Below the pieces are notes generated by a model. It searched no databases, was not told where the DNA came from, and saw nothing but the letters and a program-made list of their open reading frames with translations. The translations under genes were made by a program, and so were the position numbers. This document shows, in pieces, positions 22,787 to 37,518 of a stretch of DNA of 64,000 nucleotides (within the stretch, counting starts at the first letter, position 1; each line of letters opens with the position of its first letter). Location of the stretch: the NCBI GenBank assembly GCA_025449735.1, contig JANWIV010000003.1, positions 186,001 through 250,000 of the forward strand. The letters run 5' to 3'. The DNA comes from Candidatus Microgenomates bacterium. Its GTDB lineage: Bacteria > Patescibacteriota > Microgenomatia > UBA1406 > HO2-37-13b.

Positions 22787-25700
22787 TCAGCTTAGCGTTG
22801 AATTTGTAGCATACAGCGCTCTTGCATCTTGATAATGCTCGTACACAAAATTGTAAATCTCAAATCCCTTTAACTCACAGTCTTTTTCAGTATATGTTGG
22901 CTCGGGTAATTTTGTAAAAAGCAGATCAGATATTGCTATTTTTACTCCTGCGCGATTTGTCTCAAAATCTCTCCAGTGTGGTACAAGAAGTGGTTTCAAA
23001 TTTATGAGCAATTCATGCGCAGCTCCTTTTATGTTAGTAACTTCATCTGGGTTTAGATTATCTTTCACTAATAAATCGAAGATCGCCAATTCCTCCTGAC
23101 TTAAACCTTCTTTTACTGCGCGCTGTTCTTCTTCACTTAGGTCTTTTGCTAATTCAACCAAATCATCAAAAAGCTTATCAACATCGTGTGCTCCGCTATT
23201 ATATTCGTGTAACAGTGAAATGAGTCGTTCCATAAATACGACCCGTTTTTTGTTTTTTCTTACCATTTCTTCTATCTTCTTCTCAAGTTCTGCGCTCATT
23301 GCATCAACTTGAATATTTTTATTTTCGAGTCCTGCAAAAAAAGTATGTAATGCATCTGCATCAAGCGTACTTAGATCTTTTACTTTTTTATGCGATGGAA
23401 TAACATATTCACCTGTTTGTATTGACTTATCAAGTAAATCCTCCAAATCTTTCTTAACTTGAGAAACATCAATGCTTTGCGATCCCACATCACGAATCCT
23501 AGAAGCAAGTACACGAATTGCTATGACTTCTTTATAATAATCTTCTGCATTCGGATCCGGTAATACACTTCGATACGCACTTTGCACCTCGCTGGCAAGA
23601 TTTAAAAATTTCTTTTTCTTCTCCTGGTCTTCGATTATGATGTTGACGTATTTCTCTAGTAGCAACAATTTTTGCTCGCTTTGTGCTTGAATTAACGGGT
23701 CAAGACCAATGTGTTGAGTACTCAAAAATTCTTTAACCGCGCGAAGTGATTCTTTCAAATCATTCAAAAGTTCTTCTTTACTTCTAATGATGTCATCTTC
23801 ATCAATCCCGCTTGCTGCATATAATGCCAAAGCCCGCTCAATATTTTTAAATACACCAATATAATCAACAATCAATCCGTTCTTTTTTCCCTCGTCAGCT
23901 ACACGATTTGCACGCGCGATCGTTTGCATCAACGTGTGATTCTTCAACGGCTTATCCAAGTACAGAGTAGAAAGGTTTGGCACATCAAAGCCGGTCATCC
24001 ACATAGCGCACACAAATACAATCCGCAAATTGCTATCTGGTTTTTTAAATTCATCTTCCAAATTCCCATGCAGGATCCGCTCCCGAATTGGTTTGACATC
24101 AATTTCAAATGCTTCCATGTCGGCAATTTCATTTTGGTTATCACCTAAGCTCACCATTGCCGCCATGTCGACATTTTCGTGTTGCTCCAGCTTTGCCAGG
24201 ATCTTTTCATGTTCACGCTCATCTGTGGCACGTGACAGATCCATACGCAATTTGGCAATATATCGATCCCATTCTTTCTTTACTTTGTCATACACTCGAT
24301 ACGTGGTTTTCTTATCAATACAAACAACCATCGCTTTTCCATCATATCCTCGCCCCACATAATGCTCTACAATATCGCGAGCAATCGTATTCAGACGATC
24401 CTCACGGGTCACAATTTCATAAAAATTGGAATATTCTCGTTCAAGTTTTTCTTCTTCATCTTCATCAAGATCATACCGATCCATCAGCTGCCCCAATTGT
24501 TCTTCGAGATTATCATTGACATTTATTAAAAATGGCACACGGTTTTCGTAATACAGTGGCACTGTTGCACCATCGGCTACCGATTGACCAAAGTTGTAGA
24601 CAGAAACGTATTTACCAAACGTCTTTTCTGTCTCGGCTTCGCCATCAGACATGAGTGGTGTACCGGTAAATCCAATAAAAGATGCCTTCGGTAAAGCTTT
24701 GCGCATATTGAGCGCCATGCGGTCATACTGGGTGCGATGCGCCTCATCAGTCATCACGATGATATCTTTGCGGTCTGATATAGCATCCGTAATATCTTGA
24801 AATTTTTGAATTGTTGTAAAGATCTGGCGATGATCTTGAGCCAATAATTCTTTTAGGTGTGTAATCGTCTCCGCATGAACTTCTGTTTCGTGAATAACGC
24901 CAACATTCACAAAGTTTTTATATGCCTGCCCATCCAATTGCGTTCTATCTGTTACGATAACAAACGTAAAATTGCCAGTCAGCTTGCGCAAAACTTTTTG
25001 TGAAAGCCATACCATCGAGTACGATTTGCCCGAGCCTTGCGTATGCCAAAAAACCCCAAGCTTGCCGTCTAAATCTGCTCTATGTAGGACATTCTCATAC
25101 GCCCGATTCACGCCAAGATACTGAAAGTATCGTGGGACAATCTTTTTAGGTACGCTTGACGATTCGTCAAATAAAATATAGTTTTCAAAAATATCAAGCA
25201 GCCGTGTTTTGTCACATATTCCCCGAAGTATTGTTGCGAGGTCTGTCTTTGGTTTTTCCTCCTCGCTCTCGGCTTTTTTCCACTCATTAAAAAATTCATA
25301 CGGCGCAGTCAACGAGCCAAATTTATTTTCGATGCCGTTACTGATAACAATGCCCATGTTGTACCAAAAAAGCTTGGGGATAGTGTCTTTATAATCGCGG
25401 ATATTATCACGGTGCGCGTCAACCAAGCTTTTATGTGAGGCTTTAAGTTCTAATAAAACAAGAGGAATTCCGTTTACAAAAAGTATGACATCGGGTCGAC
25501 GGGTATACATTTCGCCGACTACCCATAACTGGGATACTGCTAAAAAATGATTATTTTCTGCATATTCAAAATCAAAAAATCGAACCCGTTCGGTTTTTAT
25601 TTCACCATTTTCTTGTGCCACATTTACATTCACGCCATCACGCAAAAGTTGGTAAATCTCTTTATTAGCTTTTACTAAAGTCAGATTTGACCGATCGCGA

Positions 25701-25933
25701 GTAATACCATCTACCGCTTGTTCAAGCGCGTCGATTGGCAAAGTGGGGTTGAGTTTTTGAAGTGCAGGTAATAAATATTTCTTTAAAACAACCTCGCCTT
25801 GATGTTCTCGACCAAGTGATAAATCATCTTGATCTTTATAAGCGTTAATATGACACGATTCATCACCCCATATTTCTTTAATGAGTTTAATGACTGTTTG
25901 CTCGACTAGGTTGTCTTCGTTGAATGGGTTCAT
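22787..25933 (-). CDS. hsdR: Type I restriction enzyme R subunit (HsdR)
   Basis: 1048 residues. The N-terminal nuclease has RRPDVILFVNGIPLVLLELKAS (D...ExK of the PD-(D/E)XK fold). The motor domain has Walker A FWHTQGSGKSYSMVW, DEAH box VMTDEAHRTQYD, and SFIGFTGTPL (SAT-like motif), with IARANRV further on. It translocates and cuts unmethylated DNA in complex with HsdM and HsdS. It is the last gene of the island's restriction operon, three bases after the preceding nuclease gene. Length is normal for the family. Confidence 0.96.
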   Translation of the reverse strand: MNPFNEDNLVEQTVIKLIKEIWGDESCHINAYKDQDDLSLGREHQGEVVLKKYLLPALQKLNPTLPIDALEQAVDGITRDRSNLTLVKANKEIYQLLRDGVNVNVAQENGEIKTERVRFFDFEYAENNHFLAVSQLWVVGEMYTRRPDVILFVNGIPLVLLELKASHKSLVDAHRDNIRDYKDTIPKLFWYNMGIVISNGIENKFGSLTAPYEFFNEWKKAESEEEKPKTDLATILRGICDKTRLLDIFENYILFDESSSVPKKIVPRYFQYLGVNRAYENVLHRADLDGKLGVFWHTQGSGKSYSMVWLSQKVLRKLTGNFTFVIVTDRTQLDGQAYKNFVNVGVIHETEVHAETITHLKELLAQDHRQIFTTIQKFQDITDAISDRKDIIVMTDEAHRTQYDRMALNMRKALPKASFIGFTGTPLMSDGEAETEKTFGKYVSVYNFGQSVADGATVPLYYENRVPFLINVNDNLEEQLGQLMDRYDLDEDEEEKLEREYSNFYEIVTREDRLNTIARDIVEHYVGRGYDGKAMVVCIDKKTTYRVYDKVKKEWDRYIAKLRMDLSRATDEREHEKILAKLEQHENVDMAAMVSLGDNQNEIADMEAFEIDVKPIRERILHGNLEDEFKKPDSNLRIVFVCAMWMTGFDVPNLSTLYLDKPLKNHTLMQTIARANRVADEGKKNGLIVDYIGVFKNIERALALYAASGIDEDDIIRSKEELLNDLKESLRAVKEFLSTQHIGLDPLIQAQSEQKLLLLEKYVNIIIEDQEKKKKFLNLASEVQSAYRSVLPDPNAEDYYKEVIAIRVLASRIRDVGSQSIDVSQVKKDLEDLLDKSIQTGEYVIPSHKKVKDLSTLDADALHTFFAGLENKNIQVDAMSAELEKKIEEMVRKNKKRVVFMERLISLLHEYNSGAHDVDKLFDDLVELAKDLSEEEQRAVKEGLSQEELAIFDLLVKDNLNPDEVTNIKGAAHELLINLKPLLVPHWRDFETNRAGVKIAISDLLFTKLPEPTYTEKDCELKGFEIYNFVYEHYQDARALYATNSTLS

Positions 25934-25936
25934 AAA

Positions 25937-27088
25937 TTACTTGTTTAATTTTTTATAATATTCTGAATACCTTTTTTTTACATCATCAATTAGATCAGAG
26001 TACGTCTTAACCTTAAATTGCCCTCCTCGGAATTTAAGTCTCTTTTCCAAATCAATGCTTATCTTTCTTCCAACCAAATAGCCTTCGAATGAATATTTTT
26101 CAGAACTGTTTTGCTCGATTATTAACATATAAGTTTCTAGTTGATCTAAGTCTTTTGTTGTTAGCTCATGTGAAGGTCTTTTTATTTCAACTATGATCAT
26201 CTTATTTCCTACTGTTCCGCATACAAAATCTGGTCTTTTGCTCTTTAAACTTTTGTTTGTTTTTACGATCTGATTGCCGACTATAGTTCTAAGCGTCTCA
26301 TTACTGTGTAATAGCCAGTACCTCTCATCAACAATCCACATTGCATTTTCTAGAATTCTATGGACTGATCCATCCCCTCGTATTTCGTAAGTCTTATCAT
26401 CCATAATAGCTTTACTGAAAATTCCTATCGTGTCTAGCCTATATTTTACTTCTGAAGAAATCGCTGTAATTTGTCTCAATGTCCACTGCCTCAATAGTTC
26501 GGTCAAATCTTCAATTGCCCGCTTACCTTGTTTGGGCAATTGTTCTATTAGTTTTTTTGTGGCATTAACAAAACTGTCATCTGCATTCTGTAACGCTTTT
26601 AATAATGACCCAATTGCATCAGATATTCGTAATATATCTTTTTCATCTGCACTACTAAAATCAATGTTATTAATAATTTCATTGACAAATTCTGGGTGAT
26701 TTTCTGAAAGGGTTTTTGCATTTTCTTTATATTTTTCTTTCTCGAGTATACTAAGAATTTCTTTTTTCGTTTTCCACCCAAGAAAAGGACCTAAATCTTC
26801 TTCTATAATTCCTTTAATTTTATTCCACTCTTCCTGATTGTTAATGTGAACTGTTGAATGATCACCAGGCCACCACTTATAAAGGGTTATTCTTGTGTGC
26901 GGCTTATCATTTGACCTATATTCTTTAGCAATTTCTGTGACCTGAACAGAAAATTGTCTATTGACTTTGGCTATTTTTTTAACATATTCCGGAGCAAATT
27001 TTGCTGAACCACATGAGCATTCAACCGTAGTAATTGGATTCTGTTTTAAACACTTCTGGCACAATTTGTATTCTTTCTTAGCTTCCAT
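25937..27088 (-). CDS. Zinc-ribbon plus Shedu-like PD-(D/E)XK nuclease
   Basis: 383 residues. The start is a CxxC...CxC cluster (C10, C13, C24, C26) like a zinc ribbon. The C-terminal domain has E247 (RILENAMWIVDERYW), D287 (KRPDFVCG) and E301-x-K303 (IIVEIKRP), the layout of the Shedu SduA (DUF4263) nuclease fold. Shedu is a single-protein antiphage defence. The gene is wedged between hsdS and hsdR with two- and three-base gaps, so it is co-expressed with a type I restriction system. The middle region (about 90-230) is helical and unrecognised. The assignment is motif-based. Confidence 0.65.
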   Translation of the reverse strand: MEAKKEYKLCQKCLKQNPITTVECSCGSAKFAPEYVKKIAKVNRQFSVQVTEIAKEYRSNDKPHTRITLYKWWPGDHSTVHINNQEEWNKIKGIIEEDLGPFLGWKTKKEILSILEKEKYKENAKTLSENHPEFVNEIINNIDFSSADEKDILRISDAIGSLLKALQNADDSFVNATKKLIEQLPKQGKRAIEDLTELLRQWTLRQITAISSEVKYRLDTIGIFSKAIMDDKTYEIRGDGSVHRILENAMWIVDERYWLLHSNETLRTIVGNQIVKTNKSLKSKRPDFVCGTVGNKMIIVEIKRPSHELTTKDLDQLETYMLIIEQNSSEKYSFEGYLVGRKISIDLEKRLKFRGGQFKVKTYSDLIDDVKKRYSEYYKKLNK

Positions 27089-27090
27089 AT

Positions 27091-28353
27091 TTAGTTCTTT
27101 ATTTCTCTTTTCCCCGTCACCAATTGGGGAATTAAAAGATCACGGGTTTTGATCAATATATCGATTTGTTTTACAAGCTTATCAACCTCATTAATCGCCG
27201 GTTCACATAATTTAGCAAACTCTATCAGTGATTTATGGTCGGGTATAATTGCATCATATTCCAAAATTGCAGTTGGTTTGAGATGAAGGACATTTGCCCC
27301 ATTAGCTTTTTGTTTCGTTGTTTCAGTAAATCGATAACTTGATAGTATCTTGTACAAAAAACTATTAGGTAATACATCAGAATTTATTTTTACAACATCC
27401 GCTGAAAATGTAACTTGTCCGTTGATTTCTGGTACACGTGCTGGTCTTGCAATCACAGCCCGATCAGTTGTCATGTCAGTGACTGCCACTACAATATCTC
27501 CAGCTTCAAGCGATTGATTGCTATTAATTGTTCCTGAAAAATATTTCACACCGTCAAATCGAAAACCACCTCCACGATTAAAACTTTTAAGATTTACCAT
27601 ATAATAATCACCGATAAAATCATTAATATCTTCGCTGGAATACGAACGTCCACGAATAATATTTGCGACTTCGGAAAGTTTTTTCACTTTCCACCCCTCT
27701 GGAATCTTGTCATATTTAGTACCACTATCAACCATCTTTACTTTTTCATGCCCTGGAAATTTGAATTTTACAAACCATTCTGTGTAAAGCAGTTGCGCCA
27801 TTTCCTCAAGCGTTTTAATTCGCTTTTCGTTATTTTCAATTAGGTCGTCATAAGTAGAAAGAGCAGATGCAATACGAATTTGAATTTGTGGATCGGGTAA
27901 ATCTACAAGAGTATTTTCAATCAATGGTAAACGTAAGTTGCTGACTGTAGATCCAGACCCATCTGAACGTTTGAACTGCCTTTGAACTGAAGGAGATATA
28001 AGTTGGTATAAAAGAAACTTTGCATCAATTTTTTTTGGTTGAATTAAAACTACTCGTTGACCAAGACACAATTTTTCTTCATTGTTTACATAGCCAACTT
28101 GACCAATAGGAGCTTCACGTGAAAGGATACTATCTCCTACTTTTGGAACCGCTCTTTTTGTACGATAAACGTAATTATCATAGTTTGTATAACTTGCTTT
28201 TTCTTTAATGATTCTACCGTTAGAAAGATTATAATTTCTAACAACAAAATAACCAACGTCTGTCCAACTTGGTGTGGAGTGTGGGCAGTCAACTATTTTC
28301 GCAATCTCACCTAACTTTACTTTCTGCCAATTATTTATTATCAGATTTTGCAT
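27091..28353 (-). CDS. hsdS: Type I restriction enzyme specificity subunit (HsdS)
   Basis: 420 residues with two target-recognition domains, each followed by a conserved helical spacer: NNWQKVKLGEIAKIVDCPHS at the start and a second TRD opening IPEGWKVKKLSEVANIIRGR near residue 215. The segments LPLIENTLVDLPDPQIQIRI and IPDHKSLIEFAKLCEPAINE are the paired connector helices. It fixes the DNA sequence methylated and protected by HsdM. It is three bases after a small zinc-ribbon gene. The HsdR gene is two genes downstream. Confidence 0.94.
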   Translation of the reverse strand: MQNLIINNWQKVKLGEIAKIVDCPHSTPSWTDVGYFVVRNYNLSNGRIIKEKASYTNYDNYVYRTKRAVPKVGDSILSREAPIGQVGYVNNEEKLCLGQRVVLIQPKKIDAKFLLYQLISPSVQRQFKRSDGSGSTVSNLRLPLIENTLVDLPDPQIQIRIASALSTYDDLIENNEKRIKTLEEMAQLLYTEWFVKFKFPGHEKVKMVDSGTKYDKIPEGWKVKKLSEVANIIRGRSYSSEDINDFIGDYYMVNLKSFNRGGGFRFDGVKYFSGTINSNQSLEAGDIVVAVTDMTTDRAVIARPARVPEINGQVTFSADVVKINSDVLPNSFLYKILSSYRFTETTKQKANGANVLHLKPTAILEYDAIIPDHKSLIEFAKLCEPAINEVDKLVKQIDILIKTRDLLIPQLVTGKREIKN

Positions 28354-28356
28354 ATG

Positions 28357-28812
28357 TTATCTTTCTGCCTTAATATTTACAACTTGGTTATATTGATTAA
28401 TAAAAATGTCGAATTTGATCATGGTTTGTGGTTCTTTGGTTAATATTTCAATGATTACCTTGAGAATCAGAATGTAAGTCAGGATTCTTTTTGGAGAATT
28501 TGGCAACCATTTCTTTAAGTCGCTGAATTTTGAGGAAGTCTTTATTTCGGTTAAATCATTTTGCTGCTTTGCTTTTTCTAGCGCCTCAAGTAGCTCCTCT
28601 GCTCTTTTAAGTGGATTGTCTGATTGCTCTAAAACCTTGATAACTCCCTCGACCGTTCCTTTAAATGTGCCGTCTGGAATATTTTCAAAAGAACCACAGA
28701 ACGGACATATAGATTTATTACCTACCAAAGTTATACTCGCTCCAGAGCCAATATTTAGTCCTGAAGAAAAACTTCTAAAACAAGTTTTGCACTGCATCAT
28801 TAATAAAGCCAT
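28357..28812 (-). CDS. Small zinc-ribbon protein in the restriction operon
   Basis: 151 residues. MMQCKTCFRSF and later KSICPFCGSFENIP form two CxxC pairs, a zinc ribbon. Then a helical region (GTVEGVIKVLEQSDNPLKRAEELLEALEKAKQQ) and a hydrophobic C-terminal segment. It ends three bases before hsdS. Zinc-ribbon proteins of this size sometimes accompany type I systems, but I know no tested function. Confidence 0.5.
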   Translation of the reverse strand: MALLMMQCKTCFRSFSSGLNIGSGASITLVGNKSICPFCGSFENIPDGTFKGTVEGVIKVLEQSDNPLKRAEELLEALEKAKQQNDLTEIKTSSKFSDLKKWLPNSPKRILTYILILKVIIEILTKEPQTMIKFDIFINQYNQVVNIKAER

Positions 28813-28943
28813 ATTTTATTCTTTCATTTTCTTGATCTAAAAAAAATTTTAACAGTCCGGAAATTCCTAATAACTGAATTTTTATTTCGTCAAATAATCT
28901 TTTCCTGGTCTTCTTTGATTTTTACTTTCTGAAAAGTTGTCAT
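28775..28943 (-). pseudogene. Small gene with a +1 frameshift, between the Fic and zinc-ribbon genes
   Basis: A start ATG at 28941-28943 lies three bases after the Fic stop and opens MTTFQKVKIKEDQEKII, then TGA at 28890-28892. In the +1 frame, the sequence continues without interruption as DEIKIQLLGISGLLKFFLDQ and on to a TAG at 28775-28777 inside the next gene. Together they give a plausible 55-residue helical protein. The shift point reads ATT TGA C, which resembles the prfB-type programmed +1 site but lacks the usual CTT. It could be a true frameshift mutation, a sequencing error or programmed. I treat it as a broken gene. Confidence 0.45.
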
Positions 28944-28946
28944 AAT

Positions 28947-30089
28947 TTATTTTCTAAATAGCGTCACGTAATCCTTCATTTCAAACAACCTGTTTCTGGA
29001 ATAACCAGTTTTCTCCTGTAGAATTCCTAGCCTCGTGAGATCGGCAACAAGATCGCTTCCTGCTTTAAAACTGATACTCAAAACTTCACTCACGCTATTT
29101 ACACTCACAATTGGCTGTGAGAATAGATGTAAAAGTAATTGCCTCGCTCTTGGAACTTTTCTTCCTAAGGTTGCGATTTTATTATCATATTGCTCACGAA
29201 GCGTAATAATATTTTCGAATTTTTGTTTTCCTTTATTGCTCGTCATGACAACCCCTTCAAGGAAAAATCGTATCCACCCCTCAAGATTATCTTTCTGTCG
29301 AACTTCATCAAGCATTTCATAATATGATTGGCGATATTCTTCAAAATAGTCTGAAATATACAATACTGGCTTACTCAGAAATCCGCGCTCTATGAGTTGC
29401 AAAGCAATAAGCAATCGACCAATACGACCATTTCCATCAAGAAATGGATGAATCGTTTCAAATTGATAATGCATGATCGCTATTTTTATCAAAACCGGAA
29501 TATTTAATGAAGAATTATGCCAAAATCTTTCCCAATCAGAAAGTAATTCTGCAACTTTTTCGTGGTGTGGTGGTACAAAGTGGGCTGTACGAATAGAAGA
29601 ACCCCCGATCCAGTTTTGACTTGTGCGAATCTCTCCAGGCATTTTATGCTTACCTCTTACGCTTACAAGAAGTCTCGCATGTGTTTCTTTTATGAGTCGT
29701 ACTGAAACTGGTAATGTCTTTTGCTCTTCAACCGACCAGTTCATGGCGTTGATATAGTTTTTAACCTCTCTCCAATCATCTCGTCGTTCTGGATCAATTT
29801 CATCTTCCGGAAGCAATACTTCATCTATTTCTGTACGGGTGCCTTCGATACGAGACGAGCTTACCGCTTCGGATTTAACATGCATTTGAATGAAATAATC
29901 AATATCAGGGACTAATCGCGAATATGCGTTTAATTCGCCCAATAAACGAGTAGCCTCTTCAAGAAGAATGATTGTAGACTGATCACTAGCTATAAATGGT
30001 CTGTTAATAGGAGAGGGTAGGAAACTTTTATATTCAGTCTCCTTGCCTGCATACATTGTTTGGTATGTTCCCGCAGTAAAGTTTTTCAT
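28947..30089 (-). CDS. Fic family protein (DUF4172-like N-terminus)
   Basis: 380 residues with the Fic active site HPFLDGNGRIGRLL (AMP or nucleotide transfer) and an N-terminal domain beginning with SFLPSPINRPFI. The segment VSSSRIEGTRTEIDE holds the inhibitory (S/T)xxxE(G/N) motif (SSRIEG), indicating autoinhibition as in class II Fic proteins. A C-terminal wHTH-like tail (VNSVSEVLSISFKAGSDLVADLTRLGILQEK) follows. It is placed between hsdM and hsdS and has its own promoter. It may regulate or protect the restriction enzyme (inference). Confidence 0.88.
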   Translation of the reverse strand: MKNFTAGTYQTMYAGKETEYKSFLPSPINRPFIASDQSTIILLEEATRLLGELNAYSRLVPDIDYFIQMHVKSEAVSSSRIEGTRTEIDEVLLPEDEIDPERRDDWREVKNYINAMNWSVEEQKTLPVSVRLIKETHARLLVSVRGKHKMPGEIRTSQNWIGGSSIRTAHFVPPHHEKVAELLSDWERFWHNSSLNIPVLIKIAIMHYQFETIHPFLDGNGRIGRLLIALQLIERGFLSKPVLYISDYFEEYRQSYYEMLDEVRQKDNLEGWIRFFLEGVVMTSNKGKQKFENIITLREQYDNKIATLGRKVPRARQLLLHLFSQPIVSVNSVSEVLSISFKAGSDLVADLTRLGILQEKTGYSRNRLFEMKDYVTLFRK

Positions 30090-30095
30090 ACAGTA

Positions 30096-30124
30096 AATAT
30101 ACCATATTATATTATACTTTGCAA
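30096..30124 (-). promoter_or_regulatory. Promoter giving a leaderless Fic mRNA
   Basis: On the minus strand TTGCAA (30119-30124) and TATATT (30096-30101) are separated by 17 bases. The -10 ends six bases before the ATG at 30089, so transcription would start at or next to the start codon. No Shine-Dalgarno is present. It permits the Fic gene to be expressed independently of hsdM. Confidence 0.55.
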
Positions 30125-30146
30125 GTGTAAAGTAAAATAAGTAATT

Positions 30147-31736
30147 CTATATGATAGTTTTCCAATCATCTTTGATTTTCCTTTCCAAATTGTGTGCTTC
30201 TGTTGTGAGTAATGTGAAATCACCCATAAGCTCTTTCATACGCGCATCAAAATCAACGCCACTCATTTCTTTTTCTACTATTTCTACATAGCGCCCCGGA
30301 TTAAGAGAGTAGTCATTAGTCCGAACTTCTTCAAGAGTTGCCACTTTGCATCTTCCTTTGATATCCTGATATTTCTCTTCGCCTTTTTCTTCACGATATC
30401 TTCGAACGATGGAGGCAATTTCTTGAATTTGCTCATCTGTCCACTCGCTATGGGCGCGATCAATGGGAGTGAAAACGTCTTGAGCGTTAATAAAAAGTGT
30501 TGTGTTTTGTCTGGCAGTGCCATTTTTACGCTTATCAAAAAACCATAAGGTGCAAGAGAGTGTAGCATTCATAAACATATTGGTACCGACAGAAATAATC
30601 ACATCTACCATTCCCGCATCAATCATTTTTTTGCGGATCTCTTTTTCAGCATTTCCGGCATCACTGGCTGAATTTGCCATAACAAAACCGGCGCGACCTT
30701 GCGGATTTAGGGCACTTGCAAACATTTGCATCCACAGATAATTGGCATTTGAAATTTCGCCTTTACCAGTGATAGGAAGTCCAAGATAGTAGCGTGGATC
30801 GCCCTTTATCTTTGCTGGATCAATCACGATTTGCTTATTTTTATCTTTCCCTTTTACATTAAAGGGTGGATTGGCAAGTACGAAATCAAAAGCGCCGACA
30901 CTGTTAAACGCATCAGTATAAAAAGAATTAACTTCGGCAATTTTGCCAGACAAGCCGTGAATTGCGAGGTTCATTTTGGCAGTACGGATATTACTCGTTC
31001 CTTTTTCTTGACCATACAAGGCGATTTCATTCATTATCTTGTCTGTATAAGAGTGTGCCTTTACAAAGTTTGCAGATTGTACAAACATTCCACCGCTTCC
31101 GCAGGCTGGATCAAAAATTTTACCGTGATACGGCTCAATGACTTCTACCAACAACTTAACAATAGATTGTGGCGTAAAAAACTCTCCTCCTTTTGCCCCT
31201 TCTGAACGTGCAAATTCACCTAGAAAGTATTCGTAAATCTCTCCAAACGCATCGCCTTCAATATCGTCAGGGATTTGGTTAAAGTTTTTTAGAAGTGTGA
31301 TCAGTATTTGGCTATTTTCACCAGGGGTTCTGTGCAATGACTCGTAATCTCTTGGGAGCACACCGGCTAGGTCAGTATTTTCAGCTTCGATAGCTTTCAT
31401 AGCCTCGTTAATAGCTTTACCAATATTTTCACTCCCCGGAAGACTCATGAGATATGAATACGTGGCTATCTCAGGCAAAAACAGCACGCCTTTTGATTTG
31501 TAGTGATCTGGTGTAAGTGGAGCCTGTCTGTGGCCACTTGTTGAGTACTGCGTTCCGGACCGATCAGCGACAATGTCCACTTGCACTTTTTTAAATCGAA
31601 CATCAGCAAATTTTAAGAATATCAAGCCTAATATCGGCTCAGAAATCTCATTGAGTTTAAGACCTGAGTTTGCTCGAAGTTGTACTGCAGCCGACCAAAG
31701 TCTTTCATGGAGCTGTTTACGATTGTTGGTTGTCAT
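30147..31736 (-). CDS. hsdM: Type I restriction enzyme modification subunit (HsdM)
   Basis: 529 residues: an N-terminal helical domain (LWSAAVQLRANSGLKLNEIS) and an N6-adenine methyltransferase with the SAM motif IFDPACGSGGMFVQS and the catalytic NPPF in DFVLANPPFNVKG. It methylates the host DNA in complex with HsdS. It heads the restriction operon (hsdM, Fic, small genes, hsdS, nuclease, hsdR, all on the minus strand). The 143-base upstream region shows no convincing Shine-Dalgarno. Confidence 0.96.
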   Translation of the reverse strand: MTTNNRKQLHERLWSAAVQLRANSGLKLNEISEPILGLIFLKFADVRFKKVQVDIVADRSGTQYSTSGHRQAPLTPDHYKSKGVLFLPEIATYSYLMSLPGSENIGKAINEAMKAIEAENTDLAGVLPRDYESLHRTPGENSQILITLLKNFNQIPDDIEGDAFGEIYEYFLGEFARSEGAKGGEFFTPQSIVKLLVEVIEPYHGKIFDPACGSGGMFVQSANFVKAHSYTDKIMNEIALYGQEKGTSNIRTAKMNLAIHGLSGKIAEVNSFYTDAFNSVGAFDFVLANPPFNVKGKDKNKQIVIDPAKIKGDPRYYLGLPITGKGEISNANYLWMQMFASALNPQGRAGFVMANSASDAGNAEKEIRKKMIDAGMVDVIISVGTNMFMNATLSCTLWFFDKRKNGTARQNTTLFINAQDVFTPIDRAHSEWTDEQIQEIASIVRRYREEKGEEKYQDIKGRCKVATLEEVRTNDYSLNPGRYVEIVEKEMSGVDFDARMKELMGDFTLLTTEAHNLERKIKDDWKTII

Positions 31737-32819: not shown

Positions 32820-33866
32820 CTAGACACTGGAAGATTTATCGGAAGTATTTGAATGTAAAAAGTACAGATGGTTCTTCAAACGTTGCTTTAATTTAAAACT
32901 ATTTGCATGTTTTAAATAACCAAAATATGACTGAAGGCTTTGGTTAAATGAATCATAAGAAATGTAGTCACGAGTAAGTTCTTCCATCTTCTTATCTAGC
33001 TTTTGGAAGAGACGTTTTTTTGTTTTAGTCCGTGGCAAAATGTAATGAGGTAAAATAACATAACCAAGAAAATCAATACCCCAAGAAAACTTTCGTATGA
33101 GAATTTTTCTAGGATGTAGCTTGATCTTTAATTGTTGCTGTAAAAAACCGTCCACTTTCTCAATCAAAGAATCCAGTAGCTTTTCATCTTGGCTCACAAT
33201 AATAAAATCATCACAGTATCTAATGTAATGTCTGATATGAAGTTCATGTTTTATGAATTGATCAAGCTCATTTAAATAGACATTAGCAAATAATTGACTG
33301 GTAAGATTCCCTAGCGGCAACCCCCTTGGAAAACTATCCAAAACTTTTTTAATGAGGAAAATGGTTCTTTCATCTTGAATTGTTTTGTTAATTATCGAAA
33401 GGAGAATATCTTTATCAACTGAGGCAAAGTACTTGCTTACATCACATTTAAGCACATACGTATCTTGAGAGTAATTTTTACTCGATTTTTTTAAGAATAC
33501 TTGTAGTCTCTTTACTGCTTTATGGGTTCCTTTATCATTTCTACATGAATATGAGTCGAAAATAAATGTAGGATCAAAAATTGGATATAGAGATGAATAG
33601 ATGGCTTGATGTACGAGACGATCTTTAACCGTTGCCTTATGAATATGACGCTGCTTTGGATCATTGACATAAAATGGGATGTAGTCATCGTGGGTATAAA
33701 TACTCTTTTTAAGAGAGGTGTGGAGATCAAAAATATTATCCTCAAGGTGATAGTTAAATATCTGAACATCCTTTCTTTTCTTTTTTCCTAGTTGAAACCT
33801 TTCCCACGCCCTAAACAGACTTTCAACTGCTATAATACCTTCATAAGAAATTACTTTTGTACTCAT
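32820..33866 (-). CDS. Diversity-generating retroelement reverse transcriptase
   Basis: 348 residues of the DGR reverse transcriptase clade. The catalytic motifs are LKCDVSKYFASVD (D142) and IRYCDDFIIVS (YCDD at 217-220). Motif 4 is GLPLGNLTSQL (182-192), with the S-Q that distinguishes DGR RTs from group II intron RTs (S-P). It copies the template repeat with adenine mutagenesis. There is no maturase domain. Its ATG abuts that of avd (CAT-ATG at 33864-33869), on the opposite strand. Template repeat, variable repeat and RT all read on the minus strand. Confidence 0.95.
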   Translation of the reverse strand: MSTKVISYEGIIAVESLFRAWERFQLGKKKRKDVQIFNYHLEDNIFDLHTSLKKSIYTHDDYIPFYVNDPKQRHIHKATVKDRLVHQAIYSSLYPIFDPTFIFDSYSCRNDKGTHKAVKRLQVFLKKSSKNYSQDTYVLKCDVSKYFASVDKDILLSIINKTIQDERTIFLIKKVLDSFPRGLPLGNLTSQLFANVYLNELDQFIKHELHIRHYIRYCDDFIIVSQDEKLLDSLIEKVDGFLQQQLKIKLHPRKILIRKFSWGIDFLGYVILPHYILPRTKTKKRLFQKLDKKMEELTRDYISYDSFNQSLQSYFGYLKHANSFKLKQRLKNHLYFLHSNTSDKSSSV

Positions 33867-33897
33867 ATGTCAAATAATCAAACATTTAAAAAAGGGC

Positions 33898-33922
33898 CAC
33901 ACACACACACACACACACACAC
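33898..33922. repeat. (CA)12 microsatellite in the avd 5' coding region
   Basis: Twelve CA dinucleotides followed by one extra C. The repeat lies within the N-terminal codons of avd and 32-56 bases upstream of the RT start codon on the other strand, so it also overlaps the region expected to hold the RT promoter. With 12 units the avd ATG is 55 bases before its frame (55 mod 3 = 1). Thirteen or ten units would restore the frame. Dinucleotide tracts of this length are rare in such genomes and mutate by slippage. Confidence 0.85.
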
Positions 33923-34260
33923 CTATAGTAAATACCGGTGGTTGGAATCAACTCGATATTCCTGTCTTTTCAAAAACATATGAATTTTACAAACTCTTAT
34001 ATCAATATCTTCGTCTTTTTCCTAAAAAGGACCGATATACATTGGGACAAAAAATTGACACTCTCGCCCTTAATCTCATAGAACTCGTTATTATAGCGGG
34101 TACAAGTTCTAAAGAAAAGAAGCTGCCATATATTGAAAAAGCAAATACTTCTGTCGATCTTCTTAAACTTCTCCTTCGACTTGCAAAAGATATTGAAGCA
34201 TTAGATGGTAAGAAATACGTTGCTCTCCAGCAAGATTTACAAGAAATTGGAAGAATGCTA

Positions 34261-34285
34261 GGAGGATGGAAAAAATCCATCCTCC
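34261..34285. other. Perfect 10-bp hairpin next to the template repeat
   Basis: GGAGGATGGA / TCCATCCTCC with an AAAAA loop (34261-34285). On the plus strand it encodes the end of avd; on the minus strand it lies 24 bases after the template repeat, in the spacer of the template RNA between TR and RT. Known DGR template RNAs rely on structures just 3' of TR to prime cDNA synthesis, so this hairpin is a candidate. The loop-downstream sequence is not T-rich, so it is not a typical terminator. Confidence 0.55.
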
Positions 34286-34309
34286 CTTCTCTTTAGAGCA
34301 AGATACTAT

Positions 34310-34426
34310 CTCGAAACGGCCACCTATATTGTCATTGCGATTGTCTGGATTCCAATTCGAATTGGCATTGAGGTTGCCATCCGTATTGAAGTTCGCATTG
34401 AGAACTCTGCCATCGTTGCGAGAACC
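34310..34426 (-). repeat. DGR template repeat (TR)
   Basis: 117 bp, aligned without gaps to the variable repeat at 34752-34868. Read on the minus strand it gives G-S-R-N-D-G-R-V-L-N-A-N-F-N-T-D-G-N-L-N and onward, with twelve Asn (AAY) codons. It has 35 adenines (T on the plus strand); 23 of them differ in VR and nothing else differs. The codon periodicity is the hallmark of a DGR template. It does not encode a protein of its own. Confidence 0.96.
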
Positions 34427-34739
34427 CCCTCAACGTTTCGTGCGCCTGATACCGTAAACACTCACCACAGCTTGATTCCTCTCGCTGTTGAATTTTATTT
34501 GTCCCGACTAAGTCGAGAACAAGCACCAAGCACGGAGTGTCTTGCTTTTCTCGTGTACGCTTTTTGAGATCTAAATGATTTCAAAAACTCTGACACGTTA
34601 TTTGAAAAACAATAATTTCGGTGTCTCTCTGTCACTAAAGACAGATAGAATCATTTACCTACTTTCATGGTGAATGATAACAAAAAAAACGCGAAGTTCA
34701 AAAGAAAAAAGGAAGAACAAAGAATTCAAAGATCTAAGC
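34427..34739. other. Spacer between template repeat and target gene
   Basis: About 310 bases without a supported gene. It contains a 6-bp hairpin TCTGTC/GACAGA with a 6-base loop (34628-34645) about 107 bases downstream (in sense) of the VR end, and A-rich runs. DGR homing often needs a hairpin downstream of VR, but known ones are usually closer. The rest is AT-rich with no clear promoter. Confidence 0.5.
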
Positions 34740-35432
34740 TCATTTCACTCCCTCGAAACGGCCACCCATACTGTCATGGCGAGAGCCTGGATCCCAAAGC
34801 GAACTGGCACCGAGGCCGCCACCCGCATTGAAGCGCGCACCGAGAACCCCGCCATCGTCGCGAGAACCGGGAAGACGAGACCATGTTTGATATCCATGAT
34901 CAAAATATTCACCAGTAAGATCAAAATTATCTTCTGATCCAATAATATACGTTTCTAAAGTCATACCATGTCTACCTGTTTCTTCTGCAATTCTTTGAAG
35001 GTCGGCTACATTTGTACGAAGGTTTGGGGCTTTTGTAGAATTTTCTATATCAAGATACCCAAATCGAGGATCGCTTTCTACGGGAGAATTTGGCTGAGTA
35101 GCCCAGCTTCCAAGTGAAGTGTGTATCTGGCCTAGATGTGCGAGAGTGATACCTTCAGGTCGTAAAACTAATTTGCGACCTTGGCCATGCAGTTCCTGAA
35201 CCTCATCTCGAGATCTATCAACACGAGTTCGTGGGATATCGGCTCCAATAATAGTTCCAAATGCTTCCCAGCGTTCGCTCCAATAGTCTGAATAATCCCC
35301 TGGAGTAGGATCTGTAAGCTGTTTGAAAGCATCAGCTGCCTGCCTTACCCGTTGATGGGCATCCGGACGATTTCTAATAAGATCTAAATTTACTTGAAAC
35401 TGAGATTGTTCTGCTCCTACGCGTTCTGACAT
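34740..35432 (-). CDS. DGR target protein with variable C-terminus
   Basis: 230 residues. The C-terminus (residues 189-227) is the variable repeat (34752-34868): the TR Asn positions have become D, G, R, N, G, G, S, L, D, S, H, S. The segment TWSRLPGSRDDGGVLGARFN with following GGRFEGV resembles the C-type-lectin/formylglycine-enzyme-like fold in which DGRs place variable loops. The first 150 residues are soluble and helical and unrecognised; no signal peptide or anchor is visible. The protein likely binds a changing ligand. The mRNA appears leaderless. Confidence 0.92.
   Translation of the reverse strand: MSERVGAEQSQFQVNLDLIRNRPDAHQRVRQAADAFKQLTDPTPGDYSDYWSERWEAFGTIIGADIPRTRVDRSRDEVQELHGQGRKLVLRPEGITLAHLGQIHTSLGSWATQPNSPVESDPRFGYLDIENSTKAPNLRTNVADLQRIAEETGRHGMTLETYIIGSEDNFDLTGEYFDHGYQTWSRLPGSRDDGGVLGARFNAGGGLGASSLWDPGSRHDSMGGRFEGVK
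34752..34868 (-). repeat. DGR variable repeat (VR)
   Basis: 117 bp matching TR at 34310-34426 with 23 substitutions, all at TR adenines (sense): 17 A to G, four A to C, two A to T. The non-adenine positions are identical. This strict pattern is direct evidence of adenine-specific mutagenic retrohoming. It ends nine bases before the target stop codon. Confidence 0.96.
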
Positions 35433-35440
35433 ATGAGGCT

Positions 35441-35470
35441 ATTATATAACACCTATAATACCATTGTCAA
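35441..35470 (-). promoter_or_regulatory. Strong promoter of the DGR target gene, leaderless
   Basis: Perfect consensus hexamers on the minus strand: TTGACA (35465-35470) and TATAAT (35441-35446), spaced by 18. The -10 is eight bases from the ATG at 35432, so the transcript starts at or next to the start codon and there is no Shine-Dalgarno. Strong constitutive expression of the variable protein is expected. Confidence 0.7.
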
Positions 35471-35751: not shown

Positions 35752-37518
35752 ATGGACAATCTATCTAAACAAGAAAATGCAGTCGCCGCAATAAGAGTGT
35801 CCTCGGTTAAGCAAGGAACTCAAGGCGATTCTCCAGAGGCACAAAAAGAGCAGATCGAACAATTCGCTAAATCTCACAATATCAATATTAAGAAATTCTT
35901 TATCTTCCTTGAATCAGCATCTAAAGAGGAACAGCCAGTGCAAGAAGCGATCGATTATTGCAAAAGTCCCAAAAATGATATACAGATTTTTATTATCAAA
36001 TCTATTGACCGATTTACCAGAGGTGGCTCGTATCTCTACGACCATCTAAAAATGCAACTTGAAAAAAAACATGTAAAACTCATTGATATTTATGGCGTTA
36101 TCGGTACACAACAGGTAAACACACTTGAACACCTGGGTATTTCATTTGATTGGAGTGTATATTCGCCAACTAAAAAGGCTGAGATATTGGAAGCAGAACG
36201 AGCAAAGGATGAAATGCGAGATATTATGAGTAGAATGATTGGTGCTGAAATTCGCTATGCCCGAATGGGATATTGGGTACGAAAGTCGCCCTTTGGATAC
36301 ATGAATGAAAAGATTGAAACACCAAATGGCAAAAGAACCATTTTGAAACCTGAGCCGACTGAATCACAATGGGTTATTAAGATGTTTGAACTGAGATGTC
36401 GAGGAAATTTAAACGATCATCAAATTGTTGAAGAAATTAATAATTTGGGTTTTAAGACGAGAGTAGAGATTGTACGAGATCATAAAGACAGAACTAAAAT
36501 TATTAAAGAAAAAGGTGGAAATCCGCTTAACATAAAAGGCTTTTGGCGATATATTCAAAACTCCATCTATGCGGGTGTGAGTATGGAGAAATGGACAAAA
36601 GATAAGCGGGTGAAAGCTCAATACAGTGGACTTGTTTCTATTGAAACATTTAATAAAGCAAATAGAGGTAAAGTTATTATTTCTGAAGAAAATGGAGAAG
36701 TGAAAATTTATCAAAGACCAGCGCCAGAATACTTACTCAAAAAGGGTGTGCGAAACCCTGACTTTCCTTACAAAAGAGTTGTTATGTGTCCTCAGTGCGC
36801 AAGACCATTGTTTGGTAGTGCTTCAAGAGGAAGACTTGGTAAATATTACCCTGCATACCATTGCAATAAAAGAGGTCATTATTTTAGAGTCTCAAAAGAT
36901 AAATTAGAAAAAACTGTTGAGAAGTTTGTAAAAAACATTAATCTCCCACAAAACTATATTGACGCATTAGTTACAACAATAACCACTGAATGGGACAAGA
37001 GACACACCGAAACTAATAAAGATCAGGTTAATATTGACACAAGAATCGCAGAACTCAAAACACAAGCAAAACTATCTTTTGATAAGATCAAATTTTTAAC
37101 ATCAGAAGTTGCCATTAAATACATGGAGCAGGATTTGGTCAAAGCAGAAAATGAGATTGCACAATTATTGGTTGAAAAAGAGAAAGCCATCCAACATCAA
37201 CCCACAGATATAAGGATTGTCATGGCATACATAAAATATTTTCTGGAACACATGGATGATTTACTGTTGGGAGGCTCTGATCCTATGAATAAAGCTTCTT
37301 ATTTTGGGGTACTTTTCGACAAGGCGCCAACCTATGAAGAAATAGATTCTGGCACCGCAGAAATGGCTCAATGCGTGGCTCTAAACGAGCTCTTTGTGCA
37401 CTCTCATAACAACTGGGCTGCCCAGCAGGGATTCGAACCCCGATTACCTGGTTCAGAGCCAGGCGTTCTACCATTGAACTACCGGGCAGATACTTATATT
37501 TTACCACGAAGCAGATAA
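35752..37518 (+). CDS. Large serine recombinase (integrase)
   Basis: 588 residues. N-terminal resolvase domain has AAIRVSSVKQGTQGDSPEAQ (catalytic serine in RVSS) and FIIKSIDRFTRGGS (conserved DRFTR). Then the recombinase domain (IQNSIYAGV) and a zinc ribbon (CPQCARPLFG... CNKRGH), then a coiled-coil C-terminus. It integrates or excises this element. From about residue 552 the frame reads antisense through tRNA-Gln (AAQQGFEPRLPGSEPGVLPL), so the true C-terminus has probably been replaced at integration. Neighbours: DGR upstream, host glycosidase downstream. Confidence 0.92.
   Translation: MDNLSKQENAVAAIRVSSVKQGTQGDSPEAQKEQIEQFAKSHNINIKKFFIFLESASKEEQPVQEAIDYCKSPKNDIQIFIIKSIDRFTRGGSYLYDHLKMQLEKKHVKLIDIYGVIGTQQVNTLEHLGISFDWSVYSPTKKAEILEAERAKDEMRDIMSRMIGAEIRYARMGYWVRKSPFGYMNEKIETPNGKRTILKPEPTESQWVIKMFELRCRGNLNDHQIVEEINNLGFKTRVEIVRDHKDRTKIIKEKGGNPLNIKGFWRYIQNSIYAGVSMEKWTKDKRVKAQYSGLVSIETFNKANRGKVIISEENGEVKIYQRPAPEYLLKKGVRNPDFPYKRVVMCPQCARPLFGSASRGRLGKYYPAYHCNKRGHYFRVSKDKLEKTVEKFVKNINLPQNYIDALVTTITTEWDKRHTETNKDQVNIDTRIAELKTQAKLSFDKIKFLTSEVAIKYMEQDLVKAENEIAQLLVEKEKAIQHQPTDIRIVMAYIKYFLEHMDDLLLGGSDPMNKASYFGVLFDKAPTYEEIDSGTAEMAQCVALNELFVHSHNNWAAQQGFEPRLPGSEPGVLPLNYRADTYILPRSR
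37418..37488 (-). tRNA. tRNA-Gln (CTG anticodon)
   Basis: 71 bases: acceptor stem TGCCCGG/CTGGGCA with one G-T pair, TTCGAAT T-arm, and anticodon arm CCTGG-CTCTGAA-CCAGG with CTG in position 34-36. No CCA is encoded. It lies antisense inside the recombinase frame and is the likely integration target or boundary of the island. Confidence 0.93.

Follow-up and report, generated by a model that had tools for sequence, protein, structure and literature searches.

A window of 64,000 nucleotides of the genome of a Candidatus Microgenomates bacterium (contig JANWIV010000003.1, positions 186,001 to 250,000), a member of the Patescibacteria, carries a diversity-generating retroelement (DGR) that is ordinary for its phylum (Table 1). 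The source genome, 822 kb in 4 contigs and 88.7% complete, contains one RVT_1 gene and one variable repeat (VR). The product of that gene, the reverse transcriptase (RT), matches RVT_1 (2.9e-18) and the PHROG reverse transcriptase family phrog_1423 (6e-110), and among solved structures its best match is 8ub7 (deposited under the name 'reverse transcriptase', E 2.7e-43), which we take to be the RT of the BPP-1 DGR. The motifs LGNLTSQ and YCDD are both present, in agreement with the initial annotation, which had recognized a DGR-type enzyme with an SQ motif and YCDD. Also exact is the claim of that annotation that the VR departs from the template repeat (TR) at adenines only: in the sense of the two repeats, which is the minus strand, they align without gaps over 117 bp, and all 23 mismatches fall on adenines of the TR (17 A to G, 4 A to C and 2 A to T, from a total of 35 adenines), and the 82 non-adenine positions are all identical. 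The probability that 23 random mismatches all hit A is 6e-16. The VR occupies the C-terminal part of the target, in frame; 21 of the 23 changes affect the first or second position of a codon, and of the 12 AAY codons, 11 are mutated. Family and structure searches with the target gene gave no Pfam or PDB match, and its predicted structure is of low confidence (predicted local distance difference test score, pLDDT, 53), too poor for a fold search, including one for the C-type lectin fold expected of DGR targets.

The accessory gene avd lies on the plus strand, opposite to the RT, TR and target, such that its ATG at 33867 touches the RT ATG at 33866. A frame that ends at 34296 matches bAvd (PF22296, 1.5e-20) and 'Avd protein of DGR' (phrog_3206, 3.3e-27). 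The presence of an Avd-like gene, as originally annotated, is thus borne out at the level of the family, with the proviso that the core frame has no ATG, GTG or TTG upstream, its first start being the TTG at 34042, inside the conserved domain. Between the ATG and the core, beginning 31 bp past the start of the former, is a (CA)12 repeat, and reading from this ATG in the assembly leads to a stop after 38 codons. With 10 or 13 CA units, the full Avd would be read from ATG 33867, and with 11, 12 or 14 units, early stops result; judged by its sequence, then, the assembled allele, with 12 units, points to an OFF state of avd. The description of the DGR as 'complete' stands for the RT, bAvd, the TR/VR pair and adenine-specific mutagenesis, and has to be qualified with regard to avd, which the assembly shows out of frame behind (CA)12. 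The tract is the only run of at least nine CA units in the 822-kb genome.

Table 1. Features of the DGR and of its surroundings in the window
Feature	Coordinates	Strand	Evidence or remarks
DGR reverse transcriptase, 348 aa	32820-33866	-	RVT_1 and PHROG matches; RT ATG abuts avd ATG (CATATG)
Extended -10-like box TGCTATAAT, candidate avd promoter in the RT coding region	33828-33836	+	sequence
avd (bAvd family), as read from ATG 33867	33867-34296	+	out of frame; core 33922-34296 intact
(CA)12 simple-sequence repeat, proposed phase-variation tract	33898-33921	+	perfect tandem repeat
Structured spacer RNA 3' of the TR	34210-34309	-	fold z = -4.3; hairpin 34261-34285
TR	34310-34426	-	gap-free alignment with the VR; sole other copy of the VR in the genome
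VR	34752-34868	-	at the 3' end of the target gene; differs from the TR at 23/117 positions
Target gene, 230 aa	34740-35432	-	open reading frame; homologues with the same VR-type C-terminus beside related DGRs
Large serine recombinase, candidate mobility gene	35752-37518	+	Resolvase PF00239; PHROG integrase 9.5e-38
tRNA-Gln(CTG)	37414-37489	opposite to the recombinase	within the 3' end of the recombinase gene
HsdR	22787-25933		type I restriction-modification system
HsdS	27091-28353		type I restriction-modification system
HsdM	30147-31736		type I restriction-modification system
SoFic-like Fic gene	28947-30089		among the hsd genes

So is the interrupted avd a peculiarity of one genome? DGR loci were gathered from Patescibacteria genomes by RT homology and, in addition, by Avd homology, and 144 distinct, non-redundant loci with a divergent avd were compared. 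A simple repeat is found in the interval of approximately 90 bp between the RT start and the avd core in 92 of these 144 loci. The repeat unit is C at 58 loci, a dinucleotide at 30, a pentamer at 3 and CAAT at 1, and at none is it a triplet; the unit numbers are 8-13 for C, 5-23 for CA, CT or GA, 7 for CAAT and 7-9 for AGGAC or its rotations, which gives tracts of 8-46 nt. Such repeats are nearly absent elsewhere: runs of at least nine C occur twice in 529 kb of flanking DNA of the same loci and are rare in 17 further genomes, where many of them are at DGRs, and across nine genomes all runs of at least nine CA units are located at a DGR. When viral DGR loci were subjected to the same treatment, 0 of 87 had a tract, compared to 109 of 144 in Patescibacteria. 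On the basis of the flanks and genomes examined, a general richness of the Patescibacteria genomes in repeats was rejected as the cause. A bias of the Avd search, the patterns of which included KKGHTHTH, was also considered and rejected: after exclusion of the loci selected in ways that possibly favor repeats, that is, in a recount limited to the RT search, a tract is still present at 73 of 110 loci. Maintenance of the repeat for the sake of the peptide that it encodes (HTHT, PPP or SLSL) was rejected as well, given that the loci vary in unit, peptide and frame and that the majority of alleles are not in frame. Separately, runs of at least nine C were observed away from DGR RTs on contigs C5 and C9 of genome G581, C2 and C6 of G646, and C2 and C3 of G621; it is possible that these mark other phase-variable genes of Patescibacteria.

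An upstream ATG can be joined to the avd core by some tract length at 90 of the 92 loci, compared to 46 +/- 5 (maximum 59) with shuffled upstream DNA. Among the 75 loci with exactly one such frame, 13 are ON, 25 need one additional base and 37 need two (62 OFF), where ON and OFF alleles are counted across different species. At 34 loci, the RT side of the tract offers no ATG for the RT; at 27 of these 34, an RT ATG is found beyond the tract, inside avd, which creates a head-to-head overlap of the two genes that spans approximately 24-111 nt in the examples examined. Of these overlap loci, 15 are free of ambiguity on both strands, and in each of the 15, one and the same tract length opens both avd and the RT; all 27 are compatible with such an arrangement. 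At control loci, which have the RT start on the near side of the tract, the frames are concordant in 3 of 10. A bias of antisense frames was tried as the cause of the concordance and rejected on the strength of this control group, in which, furthermore, the phases of the far RT starts are unbiased. Some of the overlap loci are related, and they have a preferred phase in common, so the naive p value of the concordance, 7e-8, is too small, although they are spread over many branches of the tree (17 label changes). The overlapping pairs in which a single length restores both frames are at L069, L071, L075, L078, L089, L101, L108 and L114, and likewise at L123, L128, L139, L170, L173, L176 and L178.

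Tracts are also found within the RT gene. The avd tract is missing from 52 loci, 15 of which carry (CT/GA)5-17 in the RT gene, always at one site, just before LGNLTSQ (L159-L167, L077, L092, L157, L169, L174 and L177); nine of these are frameshifted exactly at the tract and six are in frame, a ratio that is not an estimate of the proportion because the frameshifted loci were fetched for split RT matches. At two further loci, a tract is located where the RT gene starts. An avd tract and an RT tract never occur together, save for short (AT)5 runs in the RT of L099 and L129.

These observations bear directly on the possibility that the tract has a transcriptional role, being part of the divergent promoter or 5' untranslated region of the RT such that its length tunes transcription of the RT and not the frame of avd. 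The tract in the window is indeed located upstream of the RT start codon, and phase variation through dinucleotide tracts in divergent promoters is a known phenomenon. Nevertheless, a tract of this kind would leave unexplained the reachable ATG, the concordance of the two frames and the tracts internal to the RT with frameshifts at that very place, and most alleles would still not allow avd to be read. We therefore regard a purely transcriptional role as very unlikely, with the understanding that transcriptional and reading-frame effects could coexist.

The evolutionary behavior of the tracts provides additional clues. When mapped on a tree of 150 RTs, the type of tract requires at least 40 changes, and several gains or losses of C, CA, GA and RT tracts are needed even if only the branches with good support are considered. 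Related pairs of loci differ in both tract length and state, for example, L044 (C9, OFF) and L047 (C13, ON), L038 (C9, ON) and L039 (C10, OFF), L043 (C12, ON) and L045 (C10, OFF). In related pairs that differ in this manner, the ratio of nonsynonymous to synonymous substitution rates (dN/dS) of avd is 0.02-0.10, indicative of purifying selection, so the gene is not decaying in the OFF genomes. A programmed slippery site, at which slippage of the RNA polymerase or the ribosome would ensure a constant low level of Avd or RT, with no heritable switching, would be consistent with the prevalence of OFF frames and with the fact that poly-C, CA and CT could slip; against this stand the free variation of the tract length and the presence of (AGGAC)7-9 and (CAAT)7, which are good substrates for DNA slippage and not sites at which RNA polymerase or ribosomes would be expected to slip, such that we give this explanation little credence. 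Finally, an ordinary, constitutive DGR in which the avd frameshift is an error of sequencing or assembly or else the decay of a pseudogene in one genome, a reading that a single genome could not exclude, considering that repeats can be mis-sized in metagenome assemblies, is hardly probable and is rejected on the grounds that the tract is found throughout the phylum, at the same place and with many different units, is probably of a length that a single read can cover, and precedes an avd that is under purifying selection even in pairs with one OFF member.

What does the repeat do? It is likely that DGR mutagenesis is under a heritable and reversible ON/OFF switch that operates by slipped-strand phase variation. 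Under this scenario, slippage during replication would alter the number of units of a non-triplet repeat that is located in the coding start of avd or, in relatives, in the shared start of avd and the RT or inside the RT, and would thereby move the gene in or out of frame. With avd (or the RT) in frame, the RT-Avd complex would copy the TR RNA with errors at adenines and rewrite the VR; with the gene out of frame, the VR would be frozen and the current variant inherited faithfully, on the premise that DGR activity in this clade is lost without Avd. In the BPP-1 DGR assayed in Escherichia coli, avd nonsense mutations abolish retrohoming (PMC12875486). In the window, Avd alone would be switched, with 12 units representing OFF and 13 or 10 units ON. 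The VR shows past activity even though the assembled allele is OFF, which matches the prediction of a reversible switch. More broadly, bacteria of this phylum probably rely on slippage during replication to switch mutagenesis by their DGRs on and off. It is also likely, if somewhat less so than the switch itself, that targeted hypermutation in Patescibacteria is controlled by a second, slippage-based mutator and that, in many elements, a single tract in the overlap switches both genes; two diversity generators would therefore be stacked in series.

Several considerations weigh against the proposed switch. The alleles compared are single assembled states from different species, the loci are phylogenetically related, so that the counts are not fully independent, and DGRs of this clade may not require Avd. 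ON alleles, at 13 of 75, are less frequent than the expected 1/3 (p = 0.003), and OFF alleles accordingly exceed 2/3, an excess that could be explained by selection for OFF and not by a purely random switch. In an independent viral collection, 2 of 5 loci with a divergent avd have a tract, poly-C in this case. About a quarter of the divergent DGRs lack a tract, and therefore the switch is to be viewed as common, not universal.

Compared with the BPP-1 DGR, the element in the window shares the RT family, the bAvd accessory protein, adenine-only differences between the TR and VR, the C-terminal placement of the VR in the target, and a structured spacer RNA 3' of the TR, in the equivalent position. 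In contrast, avd, the TR and brt of BPP-1 are all in one direction, whereas here avd faces the RT head-to-head from the opposite strand, and the TR-RT transcript is therefore antisense to avd. A further difference is the simple-sequence repeat that breaks or restores avd; we know of no such tract in BPP-1. Also among the closest known systems are the DGRs of Patescibacteria, or the Candidate Phyla Radiation (CPR), assigned to 'DGR clade 2' (Roux et al., 2021, PMC8144416), which belong to the same phylum and probably to the same RT clade. Several DGRs per genome are present in relatives, in line with reports on CPR DGRs (PMC8144416; cited in PMC10907252). The CPR DGR literature examined, including these two papers (PMC8144416, PMC10907252), makes no mention of repeat tracts or of ON and OFF frames. 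No earlier description of a phase-variable DGR was found in the literature examined, which excludes the surveys of 2017 in Nature Microbiology and of 2018 in Nucleic Acids Research; priority is not certain because key surveys of CPR DGRs and of DGR classification fall outside that literature. As far as can be told, a repeat-tract switch on avd and/or the RT is undescribed, and the comparison of sequences supports it well.

The contingency loci of Neisseria, Haemophilus and Campylobacter are the obvious parallel, with their homopolymer, di-, tetra- and pentanucleotide tracts near the 5' end, the non-triplet unit, the frame of the start codon set by the repeat number, and mixed ON and OFF alleles. 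The known contingency loci control surface structures, modification enzymes or restriction systems. In the present case, by contrast, the gene under control is part of a machine for targeted hypermutation, and two genes that overlap in antisense can be served by a single tract. The switch bears on the question of how DGRs avoid mutating their targets continually: if it is real, a few cells would explore new binding proteins while the rest keep, heritably, a version that works. It concerns a mostly uncultured, probably episymbiotic phylum in which DGRs are unusually common. For genome annotation, the implication is that many avd genes and some RT genes look broken or get missed despite being under selection.

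Two additional elements of the locus merit mention. Upstream of the avd ATG, -10-like boxes similar to the candidate promoter of Table 1 are present in 54 of 90 relatives, compared to 36 in shuffles, and cluster at positions -13 and -18 from the ATG; the sequence data suggest that the avd mRNA is leaderless or nearly so and starts inside the RT gene. The spacer RNA, which reads from 34309 to 34210, is antisense to the 3' end of avd, so that one sequence, 34210-34310, may double as the coding end of avd and the DGR spacer RNA. The same position, when folded in 12 relatives, is variable, being structured in several but not all of them.

With regard to mobility, the initial annotation placed the DGR on an 'integrative island', and the serine recombinase that overlaps tRNA-Gln is consistent with that view; a second copy of the attachment site, or any flanking attachment repeat, was not found in the window, for which reason the island stays plausible only. 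Viral contigs, when searched for exact matches to the locus in the window, yielded none. On the side away from the recombinase, the DGR is adjoined by a complete type I restriction-modification system together with the SoFic-like gene (22787-31736).
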